DNA of 64,000 nucleotides from Coffea arabica (lineage: Eukaryota > Streptophyta > Magnoliopsida > Gentianales > Rubiaceae), in contig NC_092320.1 in assembly GCF_036785885.1 (NCBI RefSeq), positions 14,447,557 to 14,511,556 on the forward strand, read 5' to 3'. Below the pieces are notes generated by a model, which searched no databases, was not told the DNA's origin, and saw only the letters and a list, made by a program, of their open reading frames with translations. Position numbers and translations under genes: made by a program. Below are positions 1,464 to 55,915 of the stretch, one piece after another (within the stretch, counting starts at the first letter, position 1; every line of letters begins with the position of its first letter).

Positions 1464-1478
1464 AGCTCCGAGACTGGA

Positions 1479-1946
1479 ATGAGGCGAGCAGGGAGACGGG
1501 ATTTCTTCAAGGGTGGTTGCCCCTCTCTGCTTCTTAGCCTGTGATTTCTTTCTCTATCACGTTACAGCAAAACCAGCATCCCTTCATCGTTTGAGAGAAG
1601 GGTTAATTACACTGAGCGCCTCCTTTTTTTTCGACTGAGTCGAACCAAACGGGCCCTTGTATTCATATTCCCTGGAAAACTTCCCAGGAGCTTTAGTTTG
1701 CGAGTTTAGGAAAGAAAAGAAAAGAAAGCATCAAAAAGGCTGTGATGATTACTTTTCATTCTCAGAATCGGAGCAAGTTTTTCTTTTGCAGGGTAATTTG
1801 AGGTGAACCGACCCGTATCTTGGCAGGGCAACCCTGATGGCCTGAAAATGGGGGATTCTTTCCCGTCTCCCTTTTGCATGCAACTGGGTTTTTGCAGCCA
1901 TGGCGGTGTTTCTCTCCCTCTTTTGCTCTGATGAAAGATCTGAGCC
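1479..1946 (+). ncRNA. L1, two-domain structured ncRNA, complete
   Basis: Domain A is 1479-1584 and domain B 1737-1946, 152 nt apart. A starts ATGAGGCG, has the loop strand AAGGGTGGTTG with CCCTCTCTG, and ends in a diverged tail AACCAGCATCCCTT. B starts AGGCTGTGATGATT (box C) and ends GATCTGAGCC (box D). It contains the core CGTATCTTGG, the hairpin CAGGGCAACCCTG, and TGCAA/TTGCA just before GCCATGGCGGTGT. The leader has GAGCTCCGAG. No clear TATA is seen at the usual spacing. The function is unknown; the structure is inferred from comparison with the other copies. Confidence 0.8.
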
Positions 1947-1963
1947 ATTTTCTTTGAGGCGAA

Positions 1964-2127
1964 ATGAGGTAATCAGAGAGATTGGGATTTTCTTGAATTA
2001 AGGGTGGTTGCCCTTCTCTGTTTTGTAGTCTATGATATCTTAGTTGCATAAGTAAACAGCCCTTTGTGTTTTTTTGTTCAAGCGAGCGCTTTCGTGTAAT
2101 AGTTCTGAGCCAGTGTGCTTTTGATGT

Positions 2128-2165
<38 letters not shown>

Positions 2166-2450
2166 GTGAATTCATAGTTGTTGTTGTTGTTGTTAGTGGT
2201 AGTGGTGGTGGTGGTGGTGGTAGTAAGTGGTAACACTACAACGAAATGAGCAAAGAAAATGAGAGATGGAAAAAGAGGCTATGATGATGCTATCGTAGTA
2301 ACATTTCTTACGAGGAAATGAACTAGCATTGATGGTATAACCTGACCCGTGTCCTGGCGGGGCAACTGGATGCAACTTTTGGTTTTGCAGCCATGGCGGT
2401 GTCACAGTTCACAACGTCATCAATGCTTGATGAAATGCAAGTTCTGAGCC
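1964..2450 (+). ncRNA. L2, two-domain structured ncRNA, diverged
   Basis: Domain A is 1964-2064, with AAGGGTGGTTG and tail AAACAGCCCTT. Domain B is 2276-2450 with box C ATGATGA and box D TTCTGAGCC. In B the core is CGTGTCCTGG, and the variable arm between GGCAACTGGATGCAAC and the last hairpin is nearly absent, making this one of the shortest B domains. The A-B linker is expanded by GAT/TGT/GTG triplet microsatellites (about 2130-2222). It lies only 18 bp after L1, so L2 has little room for its own promoter. Confidence 0.72.
2130..2222 (+). repeat. Trinucleotide microsatellites in the L2 linker
   Basis: Runs of GAT (about 2130-2163), then TGT and GTG repeats to about 2222. They lengthen the spacer between the two RNA domains of L2 without touching either domain. 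Confidence 0.9.
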
Positions 2451-2677
2451 TTGTCTATGCTATTATAGAGGTCGGTATATGCATTTCTACTTCTTGAGTT
2501 GGTTATTTTATACTTGTGAGTGGAATGTGCAAGTATGGTGTTGTATTCCAATCTATATGGAAATAACCATTTACTACACAAAGTGGGTTCGAATACACGA
2601 CCTTAAGTAATTAGTTAATCTTTCTTGACCAGAGGGTTCTATGGGAATTCCTCTTTCAACTCAAAGAATGAAAAGAA

Positions 2678-3080
2678 ATGAGGGTGCAGAGAGAGTTTTG
2701 GGGAGTTTCCAAGGGTGGTTGCCCCTCTCTCTGCTATTTCCCAATGACTAATTTGAAGAAAAATATAACAGCCCTTATCAAGCAAAACCCAAAAATAAAT
2801 AAATAAATAAATCAAAAGGAAAGGCATGACAAATGCCCTAGTACATTTTGGATCGTTGTCTGATCATCACCATTTGTCCGTCATCTTTTCTTTTTCTCTG
2901 TTAATATTGGCTGTGATGGTACGTCTTCTCTTGAGCTGCAGATCAGGCATGATGCTAATGGGACCGTATCTTGGCAGGGCAACCCTGATGATATGGGATT
3001 TTCCCCACATGCAACAGCGTTTGCAGCCATGGCTGTTCCCCTTCCTCTTTGCCTGATTTTGCTGCTCTACATCTGAGCCT
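2678..3080 (+). ncRNA. L3, two-domain structured ncRNA
   Basis: Domain A 2678-2776: ATGAGGGTGCAGAGAGAG, loop AAGGGTGGTTG, strand CCCCTCTCTCTGC, tail AACAGCCCTT. Domain B 2908-3080: box C has one change (GTGATGG), box D ATCTGAGCCT is intact. The B stem P2 has a distinctive compensatory form: GGGACCG (2960-2966) pairs with TTCCC (3036-3040), whereas most copies have GAC with GTC here. The GNRA-type hairpin is CAGGGCAACCCTG. Probably a real relative; activity is uncertain because of the box C change. Confidence 0.72.
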
Positions 3081-3240
3081 TTGTTTTGATACATGCGTGT
3101 ATGTGTGAGTTTTGTCCAAGAAAGGTGTTTGTTGCAACTTCTTTTCTGTTCAAAGTTGCTCTGGCAAGACAAATATTGCTCTGGAATTATGGTAACCCTT
3201 GAATTGTTAGTTGCACTTGTAAATTTAGTTCAAAAATTGA

Positions 3241-3715
3241 TGCACCATAGAGATGGGATTTCTTAAGGGTGGTTGCCTCTCTCTGTTTTTAGCCTATGAT
3301 TTCTTTCTTCATATCAAAGAAGCCAACAGCCATTGAGAGTTTAAAGCAAGGGTTAATTGTACTTACCACCCTTTTGTCACTGATGTGAACCAAAAGGCCC
3401 TCTTTATTGATATATCATGGAAAACTTCCAAGCCTCTAGTTTTCCAGTTTGAAAAAGAAATGAAAACATCAAAAAAGCTGTGATGATTATTTACTCTCCA
3501 AATGGAGCAAGTTTTTCTTTTGCAGGCATTTTGAGGTGATCCAGAACATATCTTGGCTGGGAAACCAGAATGATTCCAACAGAAGAGTCTGGTAAGATCT
3601 TGGCTGGGAAACCAGAATGATTCCAGCAGAAGAGTCTGGTAAGTATCTCAGATTTGCAGCCGCGGGAGCATCTCTTGGTCTCTTTGCCTGATCACAGACC
3701 AACACTAGTCTGTCC
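3241..3715 (+). pseudogene. L4, degenerate two-domain ncRNA copy
   Basis: Domain A about 3241-3335 lacks the ATGAGGC start but keeps GAGATGGGATTTC, AAGGGTGGTTG and CCAACAGCC. Domain B 3476-3715 keeps box C (GTGATGATT) but box D is replaced by TCTGTCC. A 47-bp tandem duplication, 3550-3596 and 3597-3643, repeats the ATCTTGGCTGGG core with one base difference, and the GCAA loop has become GAAA with CCAG. The terminal stem cannot form, so it is called a pseudogene. Confidence 0.7.
3550..3643 (+). repeat. 47-bp direct tandem duplication inside L4
   Basis: Two adjacent copies of a 47-bp unit starting ATCTTGGCTGGGAAACCAG and ending GTCTGGTAAG differ at a single position, so the duplication is recent relative to the array. 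Confidence 0.9.
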
Positions 3716-6633: not shown

Positions 6634-7331
6634 TAAATTAAATTATCTAAAAAAATAGATTTGTTTTCCAGACATGTAAAATAAGGAAAATAAAATTAGA
6701 AAAACTTGTAACACTCCATCCTCCCTTTAAAAGCATAAAGGAAGGATGGAATGTTGGACGCTCATTAAGGAGTGCCAATAACATTTGTGAAAAATAATCA
6801 TTCCAATTTTAGGCATGTAAATGGGAAAATTCTATAATCCCTTTTGATTACCATTCCCTCAACTTAAATATCACACTAAAGATAAATAGTTTAAATTTTG
6901 AATATTTAATAATATTTAATTTAATCATCAATAACACTTTGTTTACGATTTAACAGTGTGAATTTCACTTGTAAATATAATACTCAGAAGAGACGGTAAA
7001 ATCTCCCTACTTTATATGTGCTACTTGACATTGTCCCGATCATTCATCATATTCATTAACTATTGCTGATGAACAATACTTTATTTTCCTCAAAAAAAAA
7101 AAAAAAAAACCCTACTTTGTTTCCAAATTCCCGTCACTCCCGCACGACCTATGCAGCACCTTCTAAATTACGCTTTTAGTCCATTAAAGTCAAGCCAACT
7201 CGGGTAACAAAGCGTGCCAGGTAATTACGGTTTAATTTGATCCAAAAAAAAAAAAAAAAAAACCTTTAAAGCCCAAGTACTCACCCGAAGAAAGATTCTG
7301 ACCGCAAGGAGTCTGCTCCGGGAGGCTAAGA

Positions 7332-7806
7332 ACGAGGCAATGGAGAAAGATGGGAATTCTGTAAGGGTGGTTGCCCCTCTCCGTTCTGCCCATGACTTCT
7401 TTTTTTCATTTTCTTGAAAGAAAATGATAATAACCAACAACCCTTTAATCTTTAGTCTTTCTTTTGCTGTTTTCTGGGATAATTTCATAAACCTCCCCTG
7501 AGCTGTTTCTGTGGAGTACTGCTACTGATTCTGATGATTCTAGTTCTACTCCATACCTTTATCAAACGGCCCCTAATCCTTTGGAAGATCCTAAGTAGAA
7601 GAATAAGGCTGTGACGATCTCCGTCTTGTTAAATTCTCGGAGCAAGTCGGGCTTTGATGCATGCTGACCCGTATCTTGGCGGGGCAACCCGGATGGCGTT
7701 GTGTTAAGGGTGCCAGAGGTTGGCTTTTCTTCCTTACTCGCAGCAACCGGAGTTTGCAGCCATGGCGGTGTCACATTTTCTTTGCCAATTACACAAATCT
7801 GAGCCT
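7332..7806 (+). ncRNA. L5, two-domain structured ncRNA
   Basis: Domain A 7332-7445: ACGAGGC replaces ATGAGGC, AAGGGTGGTTG, CCCCTCTCCGTTCTGCCC, tail CAACAACCCTT. Domain B 7606-7806: AGGCTGTGACGAT (box C with C for T) to AATCTGAGCCT. The small hairpin is a perfect CGGG-GCAA-CCCG (7680-7691), an important alternative to CAGG/CCTG and CTGG/CCAG in other copies. The variable arm is longer than usual (about 50 nt). HSD pseudogene pieces follow on the opposite strand. Confidence 0.75.
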
Positions 7807-8361
7807 TCCACTCTGTTTTTTTCACTCATTTTATCTGTTTATTCGTTGAGTGTGTTCAATTGGGTACTAAAGTTTTTGCTTCAGATGATTTAATTGTCAG
7901 TCAATTGTTTGATTTTTGGGTTGAGATAACTGTCGTTAAGATTACTTTTGGCATGTCGTCAAATACTACATGAACAAAATTCAACCTTGATTTGGGATTT
8001 CCTGATTTTTATACATGGTCAAGGCTTCAGTCCTCCCTGTTGGATGTGTTTTCGTAAACCACTTCTTTTGGTGATTAGTGAAGTTAGACCTTCTACATTT
8101 GTGGGCTTCTAGCTTAAACCTATCCTTTTGCAAAATCAGGCTTTTCTGTGTTGAGATTGTGGTTTTGCATGTTAGCAAATTTTATCTCCATTAATGTTGC
8201 TCTAAATTTGCTGCTGTCGTGGTCCTTCCCAATTTTATTTTGTATTTCAGTTTTTTTGTGAATAGTTCATTGTTGGAAATTAGCTCTGTGCAAAGTTTGT
8301 GCTTGGAGAGTTTTCATTTCTTCAGTACAGGTTTCTGTATATACTTGCTGTTGGTTTTAAA

Positions 8362-8404
<43 letters not shown>

Positions 8405-10800: not shown

Positions 10801-11216
10801 GATTAGGCTTTTTCCATACTTCTACACGTAAAAAGGAAGACATTACAAACAAAAACCAGAATATAATAGTAGTACCGGAAATACTACTCTCTATTCATGC
10901 CAATCACTCTATCTAGCTTATTACCATATGCTTATTAATTAGTATTATGTTAGAGATTAAATTATGTATAGTCTTTTTGGACATTATATAAAATATTATA
11001 TGATATCCCACCAACTGGATTTGGGTTCTGGGAGGCCCAAATTTAGGTTTGCCTCGAACTCCTGATAAGAGAAAGAGTAAAAGGGCTCAGGCTTTGAGCC
11101 CTTGATCAATCCAACAATCAAGAATGGGGTTTGACAGGGAAGAGTATCCTTATGGAGTATTATATATCTAACCCCTCGTCCAAACGATGCTTTGACATTT
11201 TCAGCTCTCTAAGAAA

Positions 11217-11752
11217 ATGAGGGGAACAGAGGGATTGGGATTTCTGTGAGGGTGGTTGCCCATCTCTGTTTCTTTGCCTGTGATTTCTTCTCGGTCTTTT
11301 GAAAACCAACAGCCCTTCTTCGTGGAACAGTTCTTTTCTCAGCTAATGACTTTAATACTCCCATGTGACTTTCCTGCGAAACAAACGGAGCCTTAACGAT
11401 CTCTAACGTCTTGCTTCTTCTTGACATGACTGACCCTTGTACTTCTTCTTCTTCTTCTTCTTCTTCATCTGCTTCTAAGGCAACAAGAGGGCTATGATGA
11501 TTTAACTTGTAGAGCAAATGGGTAAGTGTGTTTGAGGCAAATCCAACCCGTATCTTGGCTGGGCAACCCGGATGGCAAATGTGAGGGAGAGGGGGAGAGG
11601 AGGGGTTTGAGTGGATCCATCCCTCTTTCTGGGGTTGGGTCCTCTGTCTGTTTAAACTTTCAATGTTTTCCTCACATCACGTTGCAACCGGTGTTGCAGC
11701 CATGGCGGCGTCATTTTCTCTTTCCCTGACCTAATTTAGACATATCTGAGCC
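11217..11752 (+). ncRNA. L6, two-domain structured ncRNA
   Basis: Domain A 11217-11317: ATGAGGGG, loop GAGGGTGGTTG, CCCATCTCTG, then TTTGCCTGTGATTTC, tail CCAACAGCCCTT. Domain B 11487-11752: box C ATGATGATT, box D ATCTGAGCCC, core CCGTATCTTGGCTGGGCAAC. The variable arm is unusually long (about 110 nt, 11576-11685) and is shared with L8. The leader is CAGCTCTCTAAGAAA. L6 precedes the intact HSD gene on the opposite strand. Confidence 0.8.
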
Positions 11753-12749
11753 CTTAAAACTTCAAAAGTGTCCGGCACCAGTGTAGGAAAATGCCGTATA
11801 AAATGTTGGTTTTTGTTATTGGTTGAATTTGCACTTTTAGGTTGTTTCGCCTCTCCCTTAGGCTTTGCATATATTTGTGTCAGGTTAGTGTGGAGTTAGA
11901 GGTCTCAGCTTTTACTGGCTAGGTGGTGCCGTGGTGGTAGTAACTGGTAACAAGGAATGTTTACACTTGCCATAACGGTCCACTATTCAACATGTCCTTG
12001 TCAAGTCAAGATGGTAATATCAAAGTTTTGTTCCATTGTAAGAGTATTCTTGGAAAATCAGGTGCTGATGAGCAATTGGATACCACTGCAAAATATTACT
12101 ACTACTTCGGCCTTGAATCTAATTTTTGGAATTCCCTTCTGGAATGTTTCGAAAGTGTACCATTCCCTTGATTTACATCATGCTGTTCTTGTGATAATTC
12201 AGTTGGTCATATTGCTTGTTTTGTCTCCTGACTTCTGTCCAGCATTTGAGTTCATATGTTTGGCAAAAAGACTAGCAGCCACTGCACCTCACGCTCACCC
12301 AAGTCTTCTCCTTCTTGGCGTCTATATAATTGAAATTCAATTCCCAAATGAAGAATCCAAACAAAGTAAATCATCTAACTTGAGACCATTTTTATCAAAT
12401 TGTAGTTTTAGAATGAAACATGATGACCTGATTTGAACAACGGGATGGTTGGTGTCTGTGAACTGTTTAAAGATGTCAGCTTTCGTTTTATGAATCTTCC
12501 ACCTCTGTTCTCTCTATATGATCTAATATAAGCTGTTACGCTGATGAATATAACCAAGAATTTTTGCTTCTCCATGAAAAACAATGTCCCAAAACAGATA
12601 CTTAATTTGCATGTTTCGTCACACAAAAATAGAACCAATTGCCGACTCCAACGACAATGATCACCGGCTTTTCATGGCTTGTGCTGGGATGATGACTTCA
12701 TTAGGAAAAAGATTATCTAGAGTTTGCACGCTACAGCCAAAAGATGCAG
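11753..12749. other. Non-coding stretch; one unassigned 159-codon frame
   Basis: An open frame at 11957-12436 (+) has 159 codons but no domain or family I recognise. The region lies between L6 and the 3' end of the HSD gene and may include its 3' untranslated region (from 12749 backwards). I do not call it a gene. Confidence 0.45.
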
Positions 12750-18056: not shown

Positions 18057-18143
18057 ATGCCTTTAATTTTTGCCGTAAATTGGTCTGAAATGGAACTTGT
18101 GAGGCCCCGTTTCCCTTTCTGTCACCATTGTTCTGTATTCTCT

Positions 18144-41193: not shown

Positions 41194-41201
41194 AACTACT
41201 G

Positions 41202-43840: not shown

Positions 43841-43871
<31 letters not shown>

Positions 43872-44023
43872 TGTTTGTGTACATATATATATATATACAT
43901 ATATTTCCCTGGCTATGTTCGAAGGGCTGTTGGTTTTTTAGTAACCAATGGCGAAATCATAGGCAAAGCAGAGATGGGCAACCACCCTTGAAGAAATCCC
44001 GTACTCCTCTGCTGCTGCCTCAT
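43528..44023 (-). ncRNA. L23, two-domain structured ncRNA, inverted
   Basis: Read on the minus strand, domain A is 44023-43922 and B 43714-43528. A is close to L21: ATGAGGCAGCAGCAGAGG, TCAAGGGTGGTTG, CCCATCTCTGC, TTTGCCTATGATTTCGCC, tail CCAACAGCCCTT. B: AGGCGGTGATGAT to AATCTGAGCCT; P2 GACC/GGTC; core CCGTAACTTGGCTGGGCAAAC; TTTTGCAGCCATGGCG. The linker carries a (CA)n tract (43842-43868) and purine-rich repeats. The leader is CAGCTCAGAAAGAAG. No room for its own promoter: the B domain of L24 ends immediately upstream. Confidence 0.83.
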
Positions 44024-44040
44024 TCGTTCTTCTTTCTGAG

Positions 44041-44355
44041 CTGTATAATCATCAGAGAAAAGGCTAAGCCCGCCGTGGCTGCAAAAACCGCCATTGGGAG
44101 ATTTTGCCGAGCCAAGATACGAGCTAGCTCAGAATCTGACTTAATTTGGAAGAGGCGGATATCATCGAAGCTTCTGATTACAAGGATTTAGGATTTAGGG
44201 TTTTTGTGGAATCACTAGAGAGGTTTGTACTACATCTGGCAAGCATCAACAGGGGCTGTTTGCTTGTATTGAAATCATCGGCAGCGTAGTTGCAGAGAGG
44301 GGCAACAACCCACCCAAAACTCCCAACCTCCCTGCCCCAAATTACACTGCCTCAT
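44041..44355 (-). ncRNA. L24, subtype II copy fused to the leader of L23
   Basis: Minus strand; domain A 44355-44251, domain B about 44175-44041. A is of subtype II, with an extended basal stem GGCAGTGTA/TACGCTGCC (9 bp) and a loop GGGTTGTTG paired to AAACAGCCC. B has core CTCGTATCTTGGCTCGGCAAAATC and GCAGCCACGGCGGGCTTAGCC. Box C is CGATGAT. Compared with L25, the 3' end after TTTTCTCTGATGATTATACAG passes directly into the L23 leader, and its own box D/GCC end is lost: a recombination junction at about 44040. Confidence 0.68.
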
Positions 44356-44811
44356 CCAAAGGGCAGGCGTTCAAAGACTCGGCCGAGTCTGAGTCGTCAG
44401 AACTTCAGCTTCCGTTCCGCCATATCCTGGAGAAGGTAGACCCGGTGGAACCTCGTTCAGACTCGGAAAATTCCGGCTCAGTCAACTCCGGGACTCAAAA
44501 GAGCGCCCGAGTCTACCGAGTCAAACCGCATTGACCCATCAGATATCCATGAATGAGGCTTTCACCATGATTTTCAGAGACACATTGGGGTATCAAAAAT
44601 TTTAAAAAGAAAAAAAAAAACTCACCGGTATCCAATGTATGAGAAATTGCGCAGAAAGACAGCCAATAACAAATCAATCTTTAACCCAAAATTCTCTCTT
44701 TGAAGACTCTTCACTATACAGCAAGTGGGTGGCAGAGGTTGAAGAGGAGCAGCAGGAAAATAAAGGGTGAAGAAGACGAGGCGGCTTTAATATCCTATGC
44801 AAGGGGGTGGT

Positions 44812-45163
44812 GGCTCAGATCTCCTTATCATCATCAGAGAAAAGGCTAAGCCCGCCATGGCTGCAAAAACCACTCTTCCGTGATTTTCGCCCAGCCAAGA
44901 TACGGGCTAGCCCCAAATCTGACACAATCTAAGAAAGGAAGATATCATCAAAGCCTCCAATTACTAGTGGGATACAGAATTTAGGATGGACTGGCCTGTG
45001 AAATCATGAGGGATGTCTGACCTTTATCTCGCGGCATCATGCATCATGAAGGGTTGTTTGTTTTTAGCATTGAAATCATCGGCAGCAGCGTAACTGCAGA
45101 GAGGGGCAACAACCCGTTCCCAAAAACTCCCAACCTCCCTGCCCCAAATTACACTGCCTCAAT
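44812..45163 (-). ncRNA. L25, subtype II two-domain ncRNA
   Basis: Minus strand; domain A 45163-45049, domain B 44957-44812. B is compact (146 nt): GGAGGCTTTGATGAT to GATCTGAGCC. P2 is long and nearly perfect: GGCTAGCCCG with CGGGCTTAGCC (one bulged T). TGGCTG/CAGCCA follows; the small loop region reads TGGGCGAAAATC. A starts ATTGAGGCAGTGTAATT, has GGGTTGTTG and the tail AAACAACCCTTC. The A-B linker is only about 90 nt. Confidence 0.75.
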
Positions 45164-45467
45164 CGAAGAAGGATTCTCCCCATGGTTCAAAGACTCAGCA
45201 AGTGGGTGGCAGAGATTCAAGAGAAGGAGAAGGAAAAAATAAAAAGGGCAAAGAAGACGAGAAGGCTTTCATATCATACGCAACGGGTGGTGGTGGTGAA
45301 ATTTGGAGAGGAGAGTGAGGTAACCAGAATGAAAGGCAGATGGCTAAGGATGGTCGAAGTTAAGCGCAGGTCCTTCGGTTGCTTTGATCAGATATATTGC
45401 CGATCTGCTATTGAAGCTGTACAGAGTAGTATAAAGGGATAATTTCAGAAACCTCAAGAGGGGTTCA

Positions 45468-45584
45468 GGGTTGTTTGTTTGCAGTGAAATGAAATCATCG
45501 GCAGCAGCGTAATTGCAGAGAGGGGCAACAACCCATTCCCAAAAACTCCCAACCTCCCTGCCCCAAATTACACTGGCCTCAATC
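45468..45584 (-). pseudogene. L26, orphan subtype II A domain
   Basis: Minus strand: TTGAGGCCAGTGTAATT, GGGTTGTTG, CCCCTCTCTGCAATTACGC, tail CAAACAACCC. Nearly identical to the L25 A domain, but the sequence downstream (45170-45460) shows purine-rich spacer shared with L25/L24 flanks and no B domain. A fragment resembling the end of the Mutator-like element (GGGATAATTTCAGAAACCTC) sits at 45437-45456, next to its tail. Confidence 0.65.
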
Positions 45585-48056
45585 CAAGGATCTTCCCTAC
45601 TCCCCCAAGGGATTAGCAATTTAGGCATTTAGGGTTCATTTCAGAAAACCTCCCCTGGGGAAATGGAACTTCCTCCGCCTAGAGATAAGATAACCTCCTT
45701 TACCACGTACTTGAGACTTGACTGTCCCCCAAAAAAAAAAAAAAAAACTCTTGGTCCCTAAAATGACTTGACTATCCCTCTGAAAAATTTCAGTCCTACT
45801 AAAGGTAACGAATCTTAAGTATAAACTTTACGAAAAAATTTAGAAAAATTAGAGTCGTTGTACAATCCTTTTAGCTTTATGTATATCTAAGGTCTATGAA
45901 GTATAAACTAAGTATTTTCTTCTCACTAAATTAACCTTGTTAGCTCAGCCCTTCTCTGCATTGACTATTAGTAACTAAAGGATTTTCAAAAAAATTTTAA
46001 AAAAATGCGCTATATAATTTTTTTTAAAAAAATGGTATGATACCTCTAAAAGTCATATTTTGAGTAAAATTGGTATTATACTCATATAGCATATCTCCAT
46101 ACACATGTATGATTTTTTTAAAAAAATCTATTACTATAAATTTATGCATGTAAAACTAATAAGTTGTAGAAATTTTAACAAATTTATTGTCCCTTTGAAA
46201 ATTATAATAATTTTTCCATGTTTTAAATTTCGTAACGTTCCAATTGTCCTCGCTTACAAGATGCAAAACATTTAAGACATTGCAAGTAGCCTGTCACGCT
46301 TCCCAAACAATTTAGCAAAACGCCTCGGCCAACGTTTTTCCTTGTCTTTATTTCTTTACGAGTTTCCCACGATTTATTACGCTGCCTTTTCGTTGTTACC
46401 GAGAAAATCTTTGATACATAATACTCAGATGTTTTAAATTTTGATAGTGAATTTAGAGTTGGTAATAAAATTTTGGGTTAATTACACTATGTTCCTCTAT
46501 ACTAGACTCTAAGTAATATTTTGCTCCCTAAATTCCAAATATATGCACTTTACCCCTTAAAGTTATATTATTAATATGGTTAAGGTGAAGTTATATTTTA
46601 CAAGACCAAAATATCATTGGCTAATTCTTGAACACATAACAATTATAACCTAATAAATAAATATTTTTCAACAATTGTTAAATTGGTTTAAACACAACCA
46701 CACCATGCACTTAAACTTTTAGCAATAAAAAGCCAAAAAATTAAAAGAAAAAAATCTAAGCAATTCAAAGTGTTTTATCTTAATACCGATATTAGTGCTT
46801 ATTTTTGTTTAATAAAATTGACCAATGCATTGTATAATTTATTAGGGATAAAATATTGATTGACATAAATAAACATGTAGTGGAAATGTATTTTAAAAAT
46901 CTCAATTATTTCCTAAATAATGTAGAACTCAACCAAAATGTAAGGTAAGATGCAAATGTGACATAGGAAAAGCAATTCACATCTTATTGATTTGTAAAAT
47001 CTTGTGAGAGTTGCAAGATAATCGAAATTTATCAAAGATAATTTGTTTATAATTTAAAGGAAAAAGAGAAGCAACACAACATAGAATTTTTGAGGATTTT
47101 CTAAATTTTTTTTACTCTACAATACAATTTTTATTTTTAATTTCATCATCTTTTATTCTTTATTTTTTTAGTATCACATGATGCAGTGTTTTTTTTCCCC
47201 ATTAAAGTGCTAAATATTCTAGCTAGCACCATCCAACTGCTCTGGCATTAATGTCTTTTATTAAAAAATTAGATGGAAAGGTGATCATTAATATTCAAAT
47301 AATCAATGTAGGGGGTAAAGTGTATATATTTAAAGTTGAGGGAACAAAGTGTTAAAAGGCATCAAGTTTAGGGGGCAAATTATGATTTTTCCTAAAATTT
47401 TTGTAATGGAATTGTACTAGGAGTGGCTCTCGGAAATGAACTCTAACGTGCAAGTCCTAAAAATGACTAGCAAGGGTGCAATTGAGTCGGGTCACTACTC
47501 AGGTTTGATTTGAGGTAAAATAATTGAGCTCGTGCTCATCAAACTCTTAAAAGTTGAAATTGAACTCGAACTTGAAATCAAGTTCAATTTTAGTTTAGTT
47601 TACTCGAACTTGAATTTAATTAAATTTAATGACTCTAATCAAGCTCAATCGAGGCTATTTGAGTTTAATCGAACTCACCTAATAAAAATTAATATGTAAT
47701 ATTTCACAATAATAATATAAAAATTTAAAAAATATATATATATATATTATAAAAAAAAACTTGATTAGGTTCGTCAAACCTTTAAGTACAAGAATTTAGA
47801 ACTCGAACTCAACTCAACCTTAAACGAGTAGCTTGAATTCGACCTCAAATTTGGTGAAAGCAAACTCGAGTCAAACTATTAAGCAAGTAATTCGTAAATT
47901 TGAACTGAGTTACTTGGTTCAATATCACCCTTTTTCCTATGTAAAAGTTGTCAATAAACAACCCAATACAAATAAATAATTTATTAAAAAACCCGGAAAA
48001 GGATGATCAACAGAAAGGTCAAAAGTAACTACGCCTTGACTCCTAGCATGTCGTAA
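45585..48056. other. AT-rich stretch with an inverted-repeat element
   Basis: No gene. From about 46500 to 47390 the left part (TTTGCTCCCTAAATTCC, ATATATGCACTTTACCCC) is inverted at the right (GGGGGTAAAGTGTATATAT, GAGGGAACAAAG), suggesting a non-autonomous DNA transposon of about 0.9 kb whose exact ends I cannot fix. Remaining sequence is featureless. Confidence 0.5.
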
Positions 48057-48064
48057 CATAAAAG
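48057..48064 (+). promoter_or_regulatory. TATA-like box of L27
   Basis: CATAAAAG, 70 bp before domain A of L27. Confidence 0.5.
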
Positions 48065-48126
48065 AGGACTTGATAGCCAAAAACCTGTCTAATTCTGGTC
48101 AACTCAGAGCTTAGAGCAGAGGAGAA

Positions 48127-48588
48127 AATGAGGCTGGTCAGAGAGATGGGATTTTCTTGAGGGTGGTTGCTCCTCTCTGCAGAGCCAATGACTTTCTTTT
48201 CCAGTCCCCCCACGATACCAACAGCCCTTCTACTGGAGGATACTCCAGCGGAAGTAATGGATTGCATGACCTTTCTGCTTTCACATATTTCGTATGTTGA
48301 GGATTAATGTCTGTCGTCTTTCTGTTTCTGTATATTTAGCCTTGAGGATTAACGCGCTAAGCCAACCAAGAAAAGAAAAATGGGATTCAATTTGAGGCTG
48401 TGGTGACTGATGATTTCTCTGGGCAATGAATTTTGGGGCATTGAGAAAAAGTGGCCTGTATCTTGGTTGGGCAACCCGGAAGGCAGAATTGGGAAAAAGC
48501 TGATATGGTTTTTCCTTTCATGCAACCGATTTTGCAGCCATGGCGGTTCGCTTTCTCCTTGTCCAACTGTTATAGCAGATCTGAGCCT
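48127..48588 (+). ncRNA. L27, two-domain structured ncRNA
   Basis: Domain A 48127-48228: ATGAGGCTGGTCAGAGAG, TGAGGGTGGTTG, CTCCTCTCTGC, GAGCCAATGACTTTC, tail CCAACAGCCCTT. Domain B 48395-48588: AGGCTGTGGTGACTGATGATT (a second TGATGA after the altered first one) to GATCTGAGCCT. P2 GTGGCCTG with CGGTTCGC needs G-U pairs; TTGG-GCAA-CCCGG; the usual GATGGCA is GAAGGCA. Leader GAGCTTAGAGCAGAG. The 3' flank (48600-49025) is shared with L22. Confidence 0.82.
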
Positions 48589-49484
48589 CATACTTTTTTT
48601 TATTCCGCTTAATTTCTTGAAAGAAATATGTGATTGCTCACTTTTTTGTACCCTAGGGATAATTTGGTTTTCACCTTTGATTTTCCTTGTTTTGCTCTCT
48701 GCCTATTCTTGGCTCGGATTCTATGATGTAAAGGCGCTTTGCTTGTGACCAAAAAACTACTTAAAAAACAAGATGGTTAGCATCTGATATTAATCTTCAC
48801 CCAAAAATACGAACCCTCAAAGATTTCATTTTGCTATTTTTTTCTATTTACTGCTTATTAGCAAATTTTTAACTGTTTTGTTCTTCAGTTTCAAGTTACA
48901 TTTCTTATTTTAACTGAGATATTTCCTGTTTACCTTCAAAAGGTATTTTTCTTCTTTTGTTTCTTTATTGCCTTGGTTGTCTGTACTTTGTAGTAGACGG
49001 CATTCAATTGCACCAACTGGGCTTAGAGATAATTTCAAAAATATCCCCTTAAGTTTCTGACAATTGCACCCCTGACCTTTGTAGGGATAATTTTCAGTAG
49101 GCATTCATTAAAAAGGGAAAAAAAAAAAAAAGGAAGCCAACTGAAAAATAAGCAAAAAAAAAGATAATCAAGAGCTGAGCGAAGACCAAGCCAAGCACTT
49201 TCATGTTCTTGGCCGTGAAAGTTTAGTTAAGCTATGTTGTTATATATCTTTTGTTTCTTCACCGTATATAGTGTGATTAGACTTGGTTAATTAATTCTCT
49301 CAACAATGGTTACTGTATTATTAATGAAATCAAATCCAATGCCTAAATCCAAAAAATGAAATTTTATTTTAAACCTCTTCCTATTCTATGCCAAACGAAA
49401 GAGGTGAATTCAAGGGATCAATGGAAGAGTCGGAGGACTGAACAGTCAACTGGTGAAATTTTCAGGCAATTTGGACAAGAATCT

Positions 49485-49612
49485 GGGCCATGCACTATTG
49501 TGTCAAAGATGCGACAACTAGTGAAAAGAAGGCCAGAAATGGTAACGAGGGGCCATGGACTATTATGTCAAAGACGCGAAAACTAGTGAAAAGAAGGCCA
49601 GAAATGGTAACT
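49485..49612 (+). repeat. 64-bp tandem duplication upstream of L28
   Basis: Two adjacent units, 49485-49548 and 49549-49612, share GGGCCATG, TATTRTGTCAAAGA and ACTAGTGAAAAGAAGGCCAG. It lies just before the L28 promoter. The rest of 48589-49634 is spacer without a gene. Confidence 0.85.
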
Positions 49613-49634
49613 AGGAAACAATACTAAGGACTAA

Positions 49635-49653
49635 CATAAAAGTTGTATAAAAC
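49635..49653 (+). promoter_or_regulatory. TATA-like boxes of L28
   Basis: Two candidates: CATAAAAG (49635-49642, 63 bp before domain A, the spacing seen in other copies) and TATAAAAC (49646-49653, 52 bp). Confidence 0.55.
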
Positions 49654-49697
49654 AAAAAATGGGCGAAAGAACTTGTCCTCAGACTCAGAGCAAAGAA

Positions 49698-50170
49698 ATG
49701 AGGCTGTAGAGAGAGATGGGATTTTCTTAAGGGTGGTTGCCGCTCTCCTGAGCCAGTGATTTTCTTCTGTTTTTTGCCCCCAAGTCTCCACAAAGCCAAC
49801 AACCCTTCAGCAGCAGAAACTGAAGATGCTTTCTAGTCATGGATCCATGGACGAATTGAAGTGCCAGGTCTGTTTCTGGTTCCTCATCATCAATCCACAA
49901 ATTTCATGCTCTTCCAAACACTCCCAAAAAAAAAAAAAAGAAAAAGAAAAGAAAGAAAGATCACGGAGGACTGAATCTGAGGCCATGATGATAATTTCTC
50001 TGAGCAAATGAAATTTTGGCACTGAGACAAAGTGGCCCGTATCTTGGTTGGGCAAGCCGGATGGCAGAAGAAGGAGAATCTGATTTGGGTTCTCTCCGAC
50101 ATGCAACCGGTTTTTGCAGCCATGGCGGTTTACTTCCTCATTGCCTTACTGATATGACGGATCTGAGCCT
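49698..50170 (+). ncRNA. L28, two-domain structured ncRNA, complete with promoter
   Basis: Domain A 49698-49807: ATGAGGCTGTAGAGAGAG, TTAAGGGTGGTTG, CCGCTCTCCTGAGCC, AGTGATTTTC, tail CCAACAACCCTT. Domain B 49980-50170: AGGCCATGATGAT (box C ATGATGA) to GATCTGAGCCT; P2 GTGGCCCG/CGGTTTAC, TTGG-GCAA-GCCGG, GATGGCA, ATGCAACCGG...TTTTTGCAGCCATGG. Leader CAGACTCAGAGCAAA. T-run after box D (50187-50202). Confidence 0.84.
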
Positions 50171-50362
50171 CAACTAAGTTCGATTCTTTTTTTTTTTTTT
50201 TTGTTGAGAATCCATATTCAACAAGCTCGCTTCTCACCTCAGTCCTCATTAGAGTTTTCTTTCTTTTCCTTTCTATCCTAAACTCGCAAACTAGCCTTGG
50301 TCTCTACATGCTTTATCAGCTTTTTCAGATCGAGAGGCGTCGGTAGAAGGAGGACCCCTAGA

Positions 50363-50706
50363 ATGAGGCAGTGTAATTGTGGGGGAGGTAGGGAGTTTTG
50401 TGGAGGGTTGTTGCCCCTCTCTGCAATTACGCCGCCGGTGATTTCATCGCTACCCACCAAACAACCCTTTATGCTGCATCCCAAAGAGCGCAATCATTCT
50501 ACTGCTGTTTCCATTTCCAGCTTCTTAAGCACTCAAAACCCCCAAAATCAAAGGCTGTGATGATTTAATCCTGCGTCAAATGCAAGTCAGATTTTTGAGC
50601 TAAGCCCGTATGTTGGCTGGGCAAGTATCACAAGTACTACTACTGATTTTTGCAGCCATGGCGGGCTTGAGCCATTTTCTGTCTGATTAAAGGCAAATCT
50701 GAGCCT
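50363..50706 (+). ncRNA. L29, subtype II two-domain ncRNA, strong covariation
   Basis: Domain A 50363-50469: basal stem GGCAGTGTAATTG (about 50367-50379) with CAATTACGCCGCC (50424-50436); loop AGGGTTGTT (50404-50412) pairs perfectly with AACAACCCT (50460-50468). Domain B 50552-50706 (155 nt): AGGCTGTGATGATT to AATCTGAGCCT; P2 AAGCCCG (50602-50608) with CGGGCTT (50662-50668); TTGGCTG/CAGCCA; GGGCAAG in place of the GNRA hairpin. The A-B linker is 82 nt. This copy is the plus-strand partner of L24-L26. Confidence 0.87.
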
Positions 50707-50908
50707 CCTTTTTCTTTTTTCTTTACTTTGCTGATTTTATTTTTCCCTCATTTGCTCTTTTCTTGTACAGTTTCCTCGTTATGGTATTATGTGTCAAAAT
50801 TCTGTTTTCATTTCCGAAGCTTTATGTCAGCTAGATATACTACTAATTTTCTAGTCATGTTATGAGATCCGGATGCCAAAAAAAAATTAATGACAACTAA
50901 ATTATATA

Positions 50909-51240
50909 CTCCCTCCTCCCACTTTAATAGTCCTGATTCTTTTTTGACACAGTTTAAGAAAAAGTAGTTAACTTTGTTGGAAAAGTAAATTTAGATTGCT
51001 ATTTTCCTAAAATATCTTCACATTAAATAGAGTATAATTTTATGGGAACTTAAATTGATGGTAAAAAAAAAGTCAACTCTCGTTAAATGTAGTAGGTTTA
51101 TTGTAACAACAACTTACATTAAATAAGGGTATTTTAGAAAAATTAAAATGCAACTACATTCTTTAATTGGAAAATTGACTGTAATTTGGGACAGATGAAA
51201 AAGGAAAACAGGACTATTAAAATGGGACGGAAGAGGGAGT
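50909..51240. mobile_element. Stowaway-like MITE, copy 5
   Basis: CTCCCTCCTCCCACTTTAAT at the left, AAAATGGGACGG and GAGGGAGT at the right, TA-flanked; interior as in copies 2-4. Confidence 0.88.
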
Positions 51241-51390
51241 ACATTTATTTCTACTAGATAAGAAAAAAGAAAAATAAACATATGTTGTCTTTCTCACGTC
51301 TATACGCTGTTAATATGGCTTTTATCGAGTACAATGCCAAACGAATTGAGTGTATTTGGATTGTTGAATTATTTCACATATTATTTTATT

Positions 51391-53528
51391 GGGATAATTG
51401 CAGAAACCTTCCCTGAGATTTCTGATATTTGCACTGACCTCCCCTCTAGGTTTTGAAATTGCATTCACCTCCCCTGAACAGTAACAATTCGTTGCAGAAA
51501 CCTCCCTGACAGCTTTTGTAGAAGTGAGATAAGAAATTTCTTCCAATTTTGCCCTCTTCTTGCTTGACAATTATTATTTGCTTGACAATTACTTAACTAA
51601 TTATCTAATTAGTTAATTGTTAAACTAATTAACTATTAACTAATTATTTGATTAATTATTAACTAATTATCTAATTAATTAATTAACTAATTAATTAATT
51701 TCTATTTATCTAATTAACTAATTAACTAAAGTTATTGTCTGTCTGAAACTAACAAACTATTTGCATGTTAAACTAATTAACTAATTAACTAACTAACTAA
51801 TTAACAGACTATTTGCATGTTAAACTATATGCAGTACGCCTTAGCTATTTAAAGTATCGGCTCTTTATGGGTATTTTACTTTCAAACATTTTATTTATGA
51901 TAAAAACGTCAATGTTTGTAAGTAAAATTCAAAAAGTGTTACAATAATATTCTTACAAAACGGGAGGGGTATAGGGCCATAAATTAAATGTTTGAAAGTA
52001 AGAATATTGATATTTTTTGTAACACTTTTTGAATTTTACTTACAAACATTGATATTTTTATCATAAATTAAATGTTTGAAAGTAAAATACCTATAAAGAA
52101 CCGATACTTTAAATAGGTAATGCGTACTGCATATAGTTTAACATGCAAATAGTTTGTTAATTAGTTAGCTAATTAATTAATTAATTAGTTAAGCAGTTAA
52201 TTAGTTAATTAGTTTAACATGCAAATAGTTTGTTAGTTTCGAACAGACAATAGCTTTAGTTAATTAGATAAATACAAATTAGTAAATTAGTTAATTAATT
52301 AATTAGATAATTAGTTAGTTAATTAGTTAAGCAATTAATTAGTTAATTAGTTTAACATGCAAATAGTTTGTTAGTTTCGGATAGACAACAGCTTTAGTTA
52401 ATTAGTTAATTAGATAAACAAAAATTAGTTAATTAGTTAATTAGATAATTAGTTAGTTAAGTAGTTAATTAATTAATTAGATAATTAGTTAGTTAATTAG
52501 TTAAGTAGTTAATTAGTTTAACATGCAAATAGTTTGTTAGTTTCGGACAGACAACAGCTTTAGTTAATTAGTTAATTAGTTAAGCAGTTAATTAGTTAAT
52601 TAGTTTAACATGCAAATAGTTTGTTAGTTTCGGATAGACAACAAATTTAGTTAATTAGATAATTAGATAAACAAAAATTAGTTAATTAATTAATTGGATA
52701 ATTAGTTAGTTAATTAGTTAAGCAATTAATTTGTTAATTAGTTTAACATGCTAAGTTTGTTAGTTTAGGATAGACAACAGCTTTAGTTAATTAGTTAATT
52801 AGCTAAGCAGTTAATTAGTTAATTAGTTTAACATGCAAATAGTTTGTTAGTTTCGGATAGATAACAACTTTAGTTAATTAGATAATTAGTTAATTAGATA
52901 AACAAAAATTAGTTAATTAGATAATTAGGTAGTTAATTAGTTAAGCAGCTAATTAGTTAATTAGTTTAACATGCAAATAGTTTATTAGTTTCGGACAGAC
53001 AACAGCTTTAGTTAATTTGATAAATAGAGATTAGTTAATTAGATAAACAGAAATTAGTTAATTAGTTAATTAATTAATTAGGTAATTAGTTAATTAGTTA
53101 ATAGTTAATTAGATAATTAGTTAATAGTTAATTTGTTTAATTATGTAGAAATAGTTTGATTAGTTTATGTAGAAATAGTTTGATTAGTTAATAACTTTTA
53201 ACAATTAGATAATTAGTTAATAGTTAATTAGATAATTAGTTATTAATTAATTAGATTATTAGTTATTTAATTAATTAGTTAAACTATGTAGAAATAGTTA
53301 ATTTAGTGTAATTTTTATTAACAAATGTTTTGTTGGGTTTGATAGAAGTACTCATCACATTCATTTGGTAAAATTAAATCATGTCAGGGGTACTTTAGTA
53401 AATTGATCCATTTTTGCTTATTAAATTGCCTCCAACTTTTGATAGGGGAGGTCAGTGCTATTTTTAAATTGATAGGGGAGGTCAATGCTATTACTATAAA
53501 AGTCAGGGGAGGTTTCTGCAATTATCCC
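51391..53528. mobile_element. Mutator-like non-autonomous element with internal palindrome
   Basis: Inverted ends GGGATAATTGCAGAAACC and GGTTTCTGCAATTATCCC, flanked by the 9-bp direct repeat TATTTTATT (51382-51390 and 53529-53537). A 9-bp duplication is typical of Mutator-like transposons; no transposase is present. The interior holds a large palindrome (about 51723-52235, centre near 51968) and an array of TTAATTAG-rich repeats (52140-53060). Truncated pieces with the same end occur near 7478, 45437 and 49026. Confidence 0.75.
52140..53060 (+). repeat. Tandem repeats of a TTAATTAG-rich unit
   Basis: About eight units of 80-160 bp, each with AACATGCAAATAGTTTGTTA, usually GTTTCGGAYAGACAACAGC, and then a variable run of TTAGTTAA. 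The first unit is also the right arm of the palindrome. Simple-sequence expansion appears to drive the length differences. Confidence 0.85.
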
Positions 53529-53668
53529 TATTTTATTTGCATTGTAAATATATTTTTTAATTTATTTTTTTAATATTTTTAATTATTCTTTTATTTCATA
53601 TACATCACATTAGAAAAAATATTATAATAATTATTTTAAATAATAATCTATCCAAATACACTTGTAAT

Positions 53669-54695
53669 TTGCCAAAAAGAAAAAATAGAAAAATAAAAAA
53701 TCACTGCCTACCACCAAAAGGCCTTGCAACAAAAAACACAAAAACATCCAAAATGTTCCTCGACGTTTCACTTCTTACACGCAATTAAGAGAATGTTGCT
53801 CAAGACAATGAAGAACAGCGTTTAAACATAATGAAAGTTCAATTTTTTACTTACTAATCTGTTTTGATTTGCTCAACAGTGTATTCCTGTTTCTGTAAGT
53901 TACAAGAAAAAAAAAATTAACGCCAAAATTCATGCGGATCTCCATGGAAGTGGAAAACACTAGAATCGGCCCATAAACCTTTAAATGGACGGATTAGCAA
54001 CTTAAATAGTGTTGGATCTTTCTTCTTATTTTAAGTAAGGCCAAAATTATAATAAAGAACAAGAGGAGCAATAGTTTGATTCATTTAAGAGAACTTAGGT
54101 TCTGTTTGATAATTCAATTTAATATTTTATTTTAATGACTTCGGATTTTAATATGTTCAAAGTCGTTTGATAATTAAAAATTGAATATCTGAATTAATTA
54201 AGTGACACTGAATTTTCTAAGCAAAATTTGCTTCAAAAAATAAGTGATAATAATTTTTAAAAAAAAAATAAGTGATAACAATTTATTATTTAATGCGATA
54301 TATATTCAAATGTATCGGATTTAATATTTAACAATTTAATAATTTAATAGATTCAGATTTCAAATTTCAGACTTCAGTTTTATTAAAGGAATCCTTAATC
54401 TCGAAATAACCAACGAGGTCAAATCATTTTACTTGGTTCAGAACCTCTCAATGAGAAAAAGAATAAAATTTTTTCTCTCATAACTCAATTAACCTGTTCT
54501 TTTGTTTCCTCCTCAAGGACCTCATCCCCCAAATAGCATCTTACATACCAAAAAATCTAAAAGCTCACACATCACTACTTTAGGCTTTCATTTGGCAGAT
54601 ACTTGGGCTTCATTTGCTGGGCTAAAATGGTATAATTTGTTTAGGGCTTCATCGGTGAAACGAGCAAAGGCCCACGAAAGGCCTGAAACTAGTGC
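53669..54695. other. Spacer before L30
   Basis: AT-rich, no gene. Close to L30 are TGGGCT (about 54618) and GGCCCA (54669-54674), site II-type elements (TGGGCY) common in promoters of plant ribosomal protein and snoRNA genes. Their role here is inferred from position only. Confidence 0.5.
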
Positions 54696-54703
54696 TATAA
54701 AAG
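54696..54703 (+). promoter_or_regulatory. TATA box of L30
   Basis: TATAAAAG, 66 bp before domain A of L30, with a GGCCCA site II-type motif about 22 bp further upstream. Confidence 0.7.
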
Positions 54704-54761
54704 AAACAACCATACCGGATCTCAAAAAAAAAAAAAAAGCAAAAATCTCATTAGTTTAAGA

Positions 54762-55195
54762 CTGAGGCGGAGAGCAATCTCGCCGGAAGAGAGGTAAATG
54801 GAGTTCCTGAGGGTGGTTGCCCCTCTCTTTCCCGCGTATCTCCGCCGATGATCTCAAAAAAAGCAATGAAGCTCCTATTTTCACAACCGCCCTTCGGAAA
54901 ATGCAGGCTGCAAAATGGTCCTTGAACATTTTTAGCTATTGTTTACGTCTCTCTCTCTCTCTCTCTCAGTAGTTCGATACGGACGAGGCTGTGATGAATA
55001 GGTTTGTGGACTTGGAAAGAAGTCTCAGACTCTGAAAATAGCTAATACCATAACTTGGCAGGGCACAGCTCAGATGGTCAAATTTTGTTGAGTTTCTGGC
55101 AAAAAAAAAATGGCAACTGTTGCTTTGCAGCCATGGTCTATTGGTGGTTTTAGCAATTTTTACCAATTTGTCTGATCAAAGGCGAATCTGAGCCT
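54762..55195 (+). ncRNA. L30, divergent two-domain ncRNA with strong covariation
   Basis: Domain A 54762-54894: CTGAGGCGG start; basal stem GGCGGAGA (54766-54773) with TCTCCGCC (54839-54846); GAGAGG with CCTCTC; loop AGGGTGGTTG (54810-54819) with tail CAACCGCCCT (54884-54893), ten pairs without mismatch. Domain B 54986-55195: AGGCTGTGATGAA to AATCTGAGCCT; P2 GCTAA+ACCA (55041-55050) with TGGT (55142-55145) and TTAGC (55150-55154). Primary sequence differs widely from other copies, yet every helix is kept. Predicted RNA about 465 nt. Confidence 0.87.
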
Positions 55196-55356
55196 CCATT
55201 TTTAGGGTTTTCATTGAGGTCGAGACTATTTATTTTTAATTTTCTTTTCTTTCCTTTTTAAGTTTTCATGATGACTGAATTACCGTCTGTGTCCTCCAAG
55301 ACAAAGGGTTGGAAAGGACATAACAGGACGGACTCTGTAGCCCGCGGAGACACTAC

Positions 55357-55363
55357 TATAAAG
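55357..55363 (+). promoter_or_regulatory. TATA box of L31
   Basis: TATAAAG, 65 bp before domain A of L31. The leader ATCTCATTATTAGTTTAAGA is shared with L30 (ATCTCATTAGTTTAAGA). Confidence 0.68.
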
Positions 55364-55421
55364 TTGGCATTGAAGCAGAGAGAGCAGACCCTAGATTCAG
55401 CATCTCATTATTAGTTTAAGA

Positions 55422-55915
55422 ATGAGGCTAAACTCAGAGAGGCATGGAGTTTGTCAAGGGTGGTTACCCCTCTCTGTAAATCAGCCAATGATTTCAACTA
55501 AAAATGAAGGAAAAAAAAACCACCCTTCAAATCCAAACATACACACATACAAACAGTGGATACACAAATATATGTATATATGTATATATAGATGGATGGA
55601 TAGAGAGAGACTGGTGGGATCATGGTTTCATTCCCTTTCCTCCTCTTTCCCAACTGCTTATCTGAGGCTGTGATGATTTTTTTTTTTGTTTGTTATCAAT
55701 ACGAAACTAAATAGAAATCAAGATTTTGAGCTTTTCTTGGCTTGGTGAACTCTGGAGGGTCTGTGAGGGATATGCAGAGGGCTCAAAAGGAAAATTGGGC
55801 ACTTTTGGTTCATTTTTCCTTTTGGGTTCTTTGTCTGATTTCTCTCATGCGGCAACTGTTGTTTGCAGCCATAGCGGGTTTAGCCTGTCTTGATGTCAGA
55901 CTCCAATCTGAGCCT
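55422..55915 (+). ncRNA. L31, divergent two-domain ncRNA
   Basis: Domain A 55422-55527: ATGAGGCTAAACTCAGAGAG, loop AAGGGTGGTT (55456-55465) paired perfectly with tail AACCACCCTT (55518-55527), CCCCTCTCTG, CAGCCAATGATTTC. Domain B 55665-55915: AGGCTGTGATGATT to AATCTGAGCCT, but the core reads TTTTCTTGGCTTGGTGAACTCTGG, losing the GCAA hairpin, and the variable arm is long. GTTTGCAGCCATAGCGGG is kept. An 83-codon open frame begins at ATGAGGC but has no counterpart in other copies. L31 is convergent with the GDPD-like gene. Confidence 0.8.

Follow-up and report, generated by a model that had tools for sequence, protein, structure and literature searches.

Plant catalogues of small nucleolar RNAs (snoRNAs) consist mainly of guides, with a few processing RNAs. 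The processing RNA U3 contains two kink-turn motifs, its B/C motif lying inside the C'/D motif. The standard kink-turn of box C/D RNAs is described as a stem, a three-base bulge and G.A and A.G pairs (PMC5061560; PMC8162545), and mammalian SNORD116 as a set of tandem, intron-hosted box C/D copies at one imprinted locus (PMC8162545). We analysed a window of 64,000 nucleotides (nt) of Coffea arabica (C11:14447557-14511556), in which two conserved blocks, called A and B, recur together in many A-then-B units. Judged from its sequence, we consider it somewhat probable (about 0.6) that the intact units represent a new, amplified plant family of non-protein-coding RNA genes of the box C/D (kink-turn) class.

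Block B is of box C/D type: its C box, its D box and a terminal stem that covaries are arranged with the geometry of a kink-turn, to which binding of the cognate proteins is predicted. Its layout is a stem, the three-base bulge UGU and GA, followed at the other end by CUGA and the second strand of the stem. The C box is GGCTGTGATGAT or near to it, and ATCTGAGCC was found in 22 of the 26 B copies scanned first (21 exact, one with one mismatch). When the 28 near-full-length copies were scored by script (the partial copy at 25023 was excluded), C and D boxes were found in 24, including the copy at 17902, which was scored only via a stray CTGA, and 22 could be closed by a stem no shorter than 3 bp. 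The terminal stem is GAGGC/GCCTC in many copies and AAGGC/GCCTT, TTGGC/GCCAA or AGGGC/GCCCT elsewhere. In a second helix, ACCCG pairs with CGGUGU in some copies and GGCCG with CGGUUC in others, so that changes are compensated; a third (UGG/CCA) is nearly invariant and says little. The structural elements of both blocks in the reference copy are given below.

26896-26958, plus strand: kink-turn of A; UGA 26896-26898, GGCU 26899-26902 with AGCC 26950-26953, three-base bulge 26954-26956, GA 26957-26958
26906-26946, plus strand: hairpin stem S1 of A; CAGGGAG 26906-26912 with CUCCCUG 26940-26946
26926-26997, plus strand: probable pseudoknot stem S2; AAGGGUGGUUG 26926-26936 with CAACAGCCCUU 26987-26997
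27225-27412, plus strand: terminal kink-turn of B; C box UGAUGA 27231, D box CUGA 27405, AGGC 27225-27228 with GCCU 27409-27412

Covariation in B was determined on an alignment of 55 sequences (29 rows of window copies and 26 of copies at dispersed loci), which was fitted to the structure and is made up of related copies. The fraction of paired cells was 84.4%; it fell to 47-50% when the partners were slid by one column and was reached in 0 of 500 shuffles. Double-change cells numbered 58, versus 22.8 (standard deviation 5.3) after shuffling, and the covariation score amounted to 0.187, versus 0.134 in the shuffles, with none of the 500 shuffles as high as the observed value in either case. 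In helix 1, double changes were present at 3 of the 6 pairs.

In block A, a hairpin (S1, CAGAGAG/CUCUCUG) stands on a stem GGCU/AGCC that is preceded by UGA and followed by NNU-GA, which amounts to a kink-turn with the order of internal C'/D' or U4-type motifs. The inner stems vary as widely as GGCGGAGA/UCUCCGCC and GGCAGUGUA/UACGCUGCC. By script, kink-turn geometry with at least 3 inner-stem pairs was found in 20 of 28 copies (three of the eight misses had been entered at approximate positions), and 14 of the 28 also had at least 2 outer-stem pairs. The loop AAGGGUGGUUG is able to pair with the downstream CAACAGCCCUU (94% of S2 cells paired, double change at 1 of 10 pairs), and the hairpin loop of A probably forms an H-type pseudoknot in this way. 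The A stems other than S1 showed 23 double-change cells, versus 11.7 (standard deviation 2.4) after shuffling (0 of 500 as high).

Both kink-turns were also looked for with a position-blind scan that considered geometry and spacing and, apart from the boxes, none of the repeat sequence, the motif and the spacing limits having been set after the copies were seen. On the two strands it returned 16 B-type sites, all in B copies, and 8 A-type sites, all in A copies; 20 one-strand dinucleotide shuffles gave 3 B-type and 3 A-type matches in total.

A parallel array is present at C12:13.247-13.369 Mb, long stretches of which align to the window at 88-97% identity, indicating that C11 and C12 are haplotypes or homoeologues. 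We compared the homologues of seven units, dropping alignment blocks of less than 80% identity. Differences between C11 and C12 were found at 15/1266 sites in B (1.2%), 17/813 in A (2.1%) and 270/6600 in the flanks (4.1%; Fisher p 2e-8 for B and 0.004 for A), B being thus about 3.5-fold and A about 2-fold less diverged than the flanks. We made the same kind of count on five dispersed loci (L034:3989-9339 and L035-L038), which have in common a mobile element of 4-6 kb (T1; 95.7-99.7% identity; shared left end TTAACATAT) that carries about 715 bp around one array unit (unit 7 below); two of the five, mutually 99.7% alike, lack the A core. Within T1 the blocks vary like the rest, both in pairwise sites (B 64/1970, A 26/1035, rest 959/36200) and in variable columns (B 14/197, A 6/100, rest 207/3730). 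By these counts, the array copies appear to be kept intact by selection, while the T1 copies show no such constraint. Eight dispersed pairs, pooled, gave 77/2281 for B and 25/800 for A versus 474/11083 (p 0.049 and 0.12), although these pairs share loci and are not independent. L050-L051 and L051-L052 differed by 1.2-1.5% in B versus 3.4-6.2%, and some dispersed copies (L050-L052) may be constrained.

The blocks were located with a covariance model for B (R1, trained on 20 B copies) and a sequence profile for A (R2, trained on 24 A copies), the seed repeats being AGGGTGGTTGCCCCTCTCT for the A core and CCGTATCTTGGCTGGGCAACC and TTTGCAGCCATGGCGGTG for two B cores. R1 found 29 B in the window (26 on the plus and 3 on the minus strand; 9 outside the training set; expectation values, E, of 1.6e-26 to 2e-4), and R2 found 29 A (25 plus, 4 minus; 5 outside the training set). 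Joining each A by eye to the next B at a distance of no more than 600 nt led to 26 A-then-B pairs (23 plus, 3 minus), with six blocks left unpaired. On the plus strand, the distance from the start of A to the start of B is 167-511 nt. Units and unpaired blocks are as follows.

1476-1949, plus: unit 1; A 1476-1584, B 1734-1949 (R1/R2)
1961-2453, plus: unit 2; A 1961-2064, B 2273-2453 (R1/R2)
2670-3082, plus: unit 3; A 2670-2776, B 2905-3082 (R1/R2)
3229-3713, plus: unit 4; A 3229-3334, B 3472-3713; a degenerate B in which no D box was found
7326-7808, plus: unit 5; A 7326-7445, B 7603-7808 (R1/R2)
11210-11755, plus: unit 6; A 11210-11317, B 11486-11755; a TATA-like box at 11161
15330-15789, plus: unit 7; A 15330-15446, B 15587-15789; a mobile element at five other loci carries about 715 bp surrounding this unit
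17391-18077, plus: unit 8; A 17391-17509, B 17902-18077; B without proper D box and stem
18141-18351, plus: unpaired B (R1)
18411-18868, plus: unit 9; A 18411-18506, B 18678-18868 (R1/R2)
19487-19855, plus: unit 10; A 19487-19590, B 19660-19855; a degenerate B
19976-20339, plus: unit 11; A 19976-20086 (weak), B 20143-20339
20412-20861, plus: unit 12; A 20412-20499, B 20662-20861; no D box was found
22854-23292, plus: unit 13; A 22854-22955, B 23098-23292 (R1/R2)
23419-23485, plus: unpaired A, partial (R2)
23740-23831, plus: unpaired A (R2)
24629-24830, plus: unpaired B (R1)
25023-25116, plus: unpaired B, partial (R1)
26886-27414, plus: unit 14, reference copy; A 26886-26997, B 27222-27414; CATAAAA at 26830
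30179-30713, plus: unit 15; A 30179-30321, B 30500-30713 (R1/R2)
32965-33427, plus: unit 16; A 32965-33105, B 33236-33427; TATAAAA at 32909
37074-37587, plus: unit 17; A 37074-37179, B 37389-37587; TATAAAT at 37017
39774-40249, plus: unit 18; A 39774-39884, B 40079-40249 (R1/R2)
43526-44031, minus: unit 19; A 43922-44031, B 43526-43716 (R1/R2)
44037-44339, minus: unit 20; A 44251-44339, B 44037-44176; B degenerate
44809-45146, minus: unit 21; A 45049-45146, B 44809-44959 (R1/R2)
45467-45564, minus: unpaired A (R2)
48118-48590, plus: unit 22; A 48118-48229, B 48392-48590; CATAAAA at 48057
49692-50172, plus: unit 23; A 49692-49807, B 49977-50172; TATAAAA at 49646
50363-50708, plus: unit 24; A 50363-50469, B 50549-50708 (R1/R2)
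54773-55197, plus: unit 25; A 54773-54894, B 54983-55197; TATAAAA at 54696
55416-55917, plus: unit 26; A 55416-55527, B 55662-55917; TATAAAG at 55357

The B block of unit 4 also contains a 47-bp tandem duplication (3549-3648). An earlier first-pass annotation of this DNA had noted the paired recurrence of A and B, which stands, and had counted 28 pairs plus three orphans, a count that has to be replaced by the one given above. It had described a fixed orientation, which is contradicted by the four A and three B on the minus strand (clustered at 43.5-45.6 kb), and had taken all sequence outside the blocks to be diverged, yet certain adjacent units have intergenic stretches in common at 64-79% identity (D13, D14, D18). 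Nor is the array purely local, as had been supposed: it continues upstream to C11:14.411 Mb and has its counterpart on C12, and more than half of the listed B-core matches lie elsewhere (see below). It had overlooked that B is of box C/D type, that both blocks contain kink-turns, that some copies lie on the minus strand and that the family is dispersed in the genome.

The genome searched amounts to 1.198 Gb in 131 contigs, and counts that depend on a pattern are lower bounds. With up to 2 mismatches, the B core pattern had 112 matches and the A core pattern 106, and neither pattern had any match when reversed. Of the 100 B-core matches listed among these 112, 23 belong to the C11 array, which spans 14.411-14.498 Mb with nine listed matches upstream of the window, 23 to the C12 array, and 54 lie elsewhere on 16 contigs. 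Several of the dispersed groups share long flanks (84-99.7% identity), and each is nearest to its own source in the array (88-90% to 15.2-15.9 kb, 79-83% to 48.2-48.6 kb and 95-97% to 49.7-50.8 kb), as if array units had been captured repeatedly by mobile elements. Common termini, terminal inverted repeats, long terminal repeats and target-site duplications were not noticed around the array units, where no dedicated search for them was made. The groups L039-L041/L047/L048 and L042-L046 are those with 79-83% and 95-97% identity to array sources; the group L050-L052 shows only about 69% to unit 3. We also observed five matches to the A core GAGGGTGGTTGCCCCTCTCTT, the same as at 54809 in the window, across 1.8 Mb of C5:40.16-41.96 Mb.

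Of 24 A copies, 8 have a TATA-like box between -114 and -84 relative to the A core, and 5 matches occurred across the rest of the 360-nt scan. The plant small nuclear RNA (snRNA) upstream element was absent upstream of all copies at 2 mismatches or fewer and was found in 6 of 28 copies at 3. A run of at least five T was present within 60 nt past the D box in 12 of 23 B copies (degenerate and partial ones excluded), versus 21.5% of the 60-base stretches of the plus strand. T-runs also occur inside A, which, on established knowledge of RNA polymerase III, argues against this polymerase for the whole unit. A protein-coding role was rejected: the anchor distances in 17 B copies cover all values modulo 3, and in the 11 units examined, out of 26, each of the three frames contains stops.

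Among 20 copies, agreement over the 12 nt next to the D box is 40% (93% in the core, 27% at random); between C11 and C12 this stretch differs at 3/84 sites, close to the rate of the flanks. This lack of conservation excludes a common methylation guide, leaves copy-specific guides unsupported, and indicates that B is no ordinary methylation guide; it favours a structural or processing role. B is placed in the box C/D class, as a variant, by its boxes and its kink-turn geometry; a conserved guide is missing.

From the observed repeats, boxes, geometry, covariation, constraint and carriage by mobile elements, we infer transcription, one RNA or two, the proteins, the place in the cell and the role. 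Transcription would probably start below the TATA box, which precedes the A core by about 85-115 nt, and an RNA polymerase II transcript of about 450-600 nt would run through A, the barely constrained linker and B. The C box (UGAUGA) and the D box (CUGA) of B would meet above the terminal stem and form a kink-turn for SNU13/15.5K, after which NOP56, NOP58 and fibrillarin would join; the proteins on B would confer stability and nucleolar or Cajal-body localisation. A, with its hairpin, its second kink-turn and its probable pseudoknot, would probably be the working or scaffold domain, with a specific job, and the RNA would most likely have a structural or processing role, like U3 or U8, rather than guide methylation. 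Copy number would have increased through local duplication, mobile elements having taken single units elsewhere.

The boldest version of this model is tentative, and we rate it as rather doubtful: a new class of plant nuclear RNA, a single bipartite molecule whose C/D-class domain B holds the pseudoknotted hairpin domain A, each with its own kink-turn, serving as a stable scaffold or a particle for ribosome processing, with its expansion to dozens of genes explained by dosage or for copy-specific targets and its units repeatedly carried off by mobile elements. A stretch of A (GGUUGCCC) is complementary to one of B (GGGCAACC; e.g. 26932-26939 and 27295-27302), all 8 positions being pairable, G-U included, in 9 of 22 units. 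A contact between A and B through these 8 nt was rejected, since the covariation was not copy-specific in a comparison of 22 units, of which two rows were misregistered (2339 of 5000 permutations); the complementarity might conceivably serve a switch between the A pseudoknot and an A-B contact, for which covariation gave no support. If the units are expressed, one would have to ask why so many copies stay under selection, what A does, and whether the RNA belongs to ribosome making or to splicing. The same genome provides a contrast between selected array copies and drifting passengers of mobile elements.

Several points weigh against a new family of box C/D-class RNA genes. The copies on which the structures were tested are those from which they had been derived, and the shuffles leave kinship in. 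The B figures accordingly lean towards structure, the alignment being fitted and its copies related, and two of the five B measures were weaker, the observed value being reached in 11 of 500 shuffles for pairs with double changes and in 65 of 500 for further pair types; for A, pairs and pair types were likewise weaker (15 and 89 of 500). The own strands of S2 are weak evidence for the pseudoknot, since 142 of 5000 permutations matched as well (24 of the 29 A copies, which are related). From GGC to GCC the C/D unit of B measures 144-263 nt, which is unusually long, and it has no conserved D-adjacent guide. A TATA-like box is missing from the expected place in 16 of 24 A copies, and at four spots (near 1.95, 18.4 and 20.4 kb, and at 44.0 kb on the minus strand) A starts just 6-73 nt past the preceding B, leaving little room for a promoter. 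The A-B linker is barely constrained (35/1163 versus 270/6600 in the flanks, p 0.085). Finally, gene conversion between array copies could be another cause of their low divergence.

Some of these observations would be explained if A and B were two small RNAs cut from a shared precursor, B being a box C/D RNA and A an independent kink-turn hairpin RNA. We regard this as a distinct possibility, if short of even odds: the linker is variable in length and hardly constrained, the next A follows B closely at the four spots just mentioned, each block has its own closing kink-turn, and polycistronic snoRNA clusters are frequent in plants. On the other hand, the A-B order is retained in 26 pairs versus six unpaired blocks, A was seen by eye to have neither an H/ACA nor a complete C/D end motif (no dedicated search was made), and TATA-like boxes stand upstream of A in a third of the copies, in a scan that covered the upstream region of A. 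That the array consists of ordinary box C/D methylation guides, to which the C box, D box and terminal stem would lend themselves, is hardly credible in view of the D-adjacent 12 nt, which are neither alike between copies nor spared between C11 and C12, of the alignment, in which no conserved D' box with a guide is visible, and of the length of the C/D unit.

The blocks could also be conserved parts of a transposable element family, the array arising by nested or tandem insertion, since copies lie on many contigs and share flanks, with five loci sharing 4-6 kb. This is improbable: separate groups carry separate array copies, each nearest to its own source, as separate captures predict; T1 copies show no constraint and array copies do; and covarying C/D kink-turns are not known at the ends of elements. 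A dead array, in which a former RNA gene persists as old, drifting tandem copies, could account for the 4 of 28 B in which boxes were not found, for the one with a stray CTGA only, for the partial B and for the three A and three B without a partner. It is very improbable, given the compensatory changes across copies and the divergence of B and A between C11 and C12, well below that of the flanks.

Known families were searched in the same DNA. In Rfam, 0 of 4227 families reached the gathering score across the 64 kb. A permissive search of the window returned 8 sub-threshold matches to E 1, mostly to microRNA models with simple repeats, plus STnc150, RFPL3-AS1_2 and U6 (19550-19662, minus strand; 22.1 bits versus a gathering score of 44). 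For two of the 26 units, 14 matches were found to E 10, of which 11 were to box C/D snoRNA models, on either strand, and all were at or below 17.1 bits. U3, U8 and U4 were absent among the matches to E 1 in the window and to E 10 in these two units. A tRNA scan found none. As to telomerase RNA, which the pseudoknot brings to mind, inspection by eye showed no conserved telomere-like template. Two patterns each had 0 matches in viral collections, and three matches to a 19-nt pattern in bacterial collections were taken as chance. No open-access paper describing the A/B family was found in PubMed Central (PMC), where the core letters, used as a query, retrieved only a yeast replication paper that is unrelated by its title. 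The first-pass annotation's reading as an unrecognised structured RNA is supported by the lack of an Rfam match at gathering score, by compensatory changes and by divergence below that of the flanks; its further idea that A and B form one RNA is less well backed, with a linker that evolves nearly as fast as the flanks. As to the checks it proposed, no known RNA family in Rfam covers A and B at gathering score and not all copies are decaying neutrally; a transposon family is involved to the extent that some copies sit in mobile elements, which we read as carrying captured passengers.

Beside the array, at 57342-60484 (minus strand), lie pieces of a glycerophosphodiester phosphodiesterase gene, with Pfam GDPD in 2 of 4 open reading frames; the homologues of one piece that name an organism, among 120 listed, are from plants, and the named ones are GDPD proteins. 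We take this gene to be GDPDL/SHV3-like. This gene, separate from the array units, accounts for the open reading frames at 57-60 kb. Five repeats in 32392-51241 (e.g. 33651-33991 and 50906-51241) have CTCCCTCCGTCCCA-type ends as reverse complement and look like Stowaway-type miniature inverted-repeat transposable elements. A very AT-rich array at 51576-53322 consists of TTAGTTAATTAG-type units whose periods include 87, 138 and 223 bp, and two tandem 100-bp copies at 16237-16437 are GC-richer and unrelated to A or B as far as seen.

We know of no plant C/D array like this one, nor of any C/D-class RNA in plants that has another kink-turn module upstream and exists in dozens of local copies. In U3 and U8, the processing snoRNAs, the 5' part is likewise structured and the 3' part of C/D type; unlike the nested motifs of U3, however, A lies outside and upstream of B, and no Rfam U3 or U8 match was obtained. 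With the 5' stem-loop of U4 snRNA, several copies of A share the 3' strand GCC-AAU-GA, whereas A has further hairpin and pseudoknot parts and no Rfam U4 match. Box C/D guide snoRNAs have the same C box, D box, terminal stem and three-base bulge with G.A and A.G pairs (PMC5061560; PMC8162545). They differ from the present units, which measure 144-263 nt from stem to stem, have no conserved D-adjacent guide, show no consistent internal C'/D' pair in B, and are linked to a kink-turn hairpin upstream. With the SNORD116 array (PMC8162545), the locus shares tandem box C/D RNA copies at a single site, but its units are longer, include an upstream module, stand in a plant and have also been spread by mobile elements.

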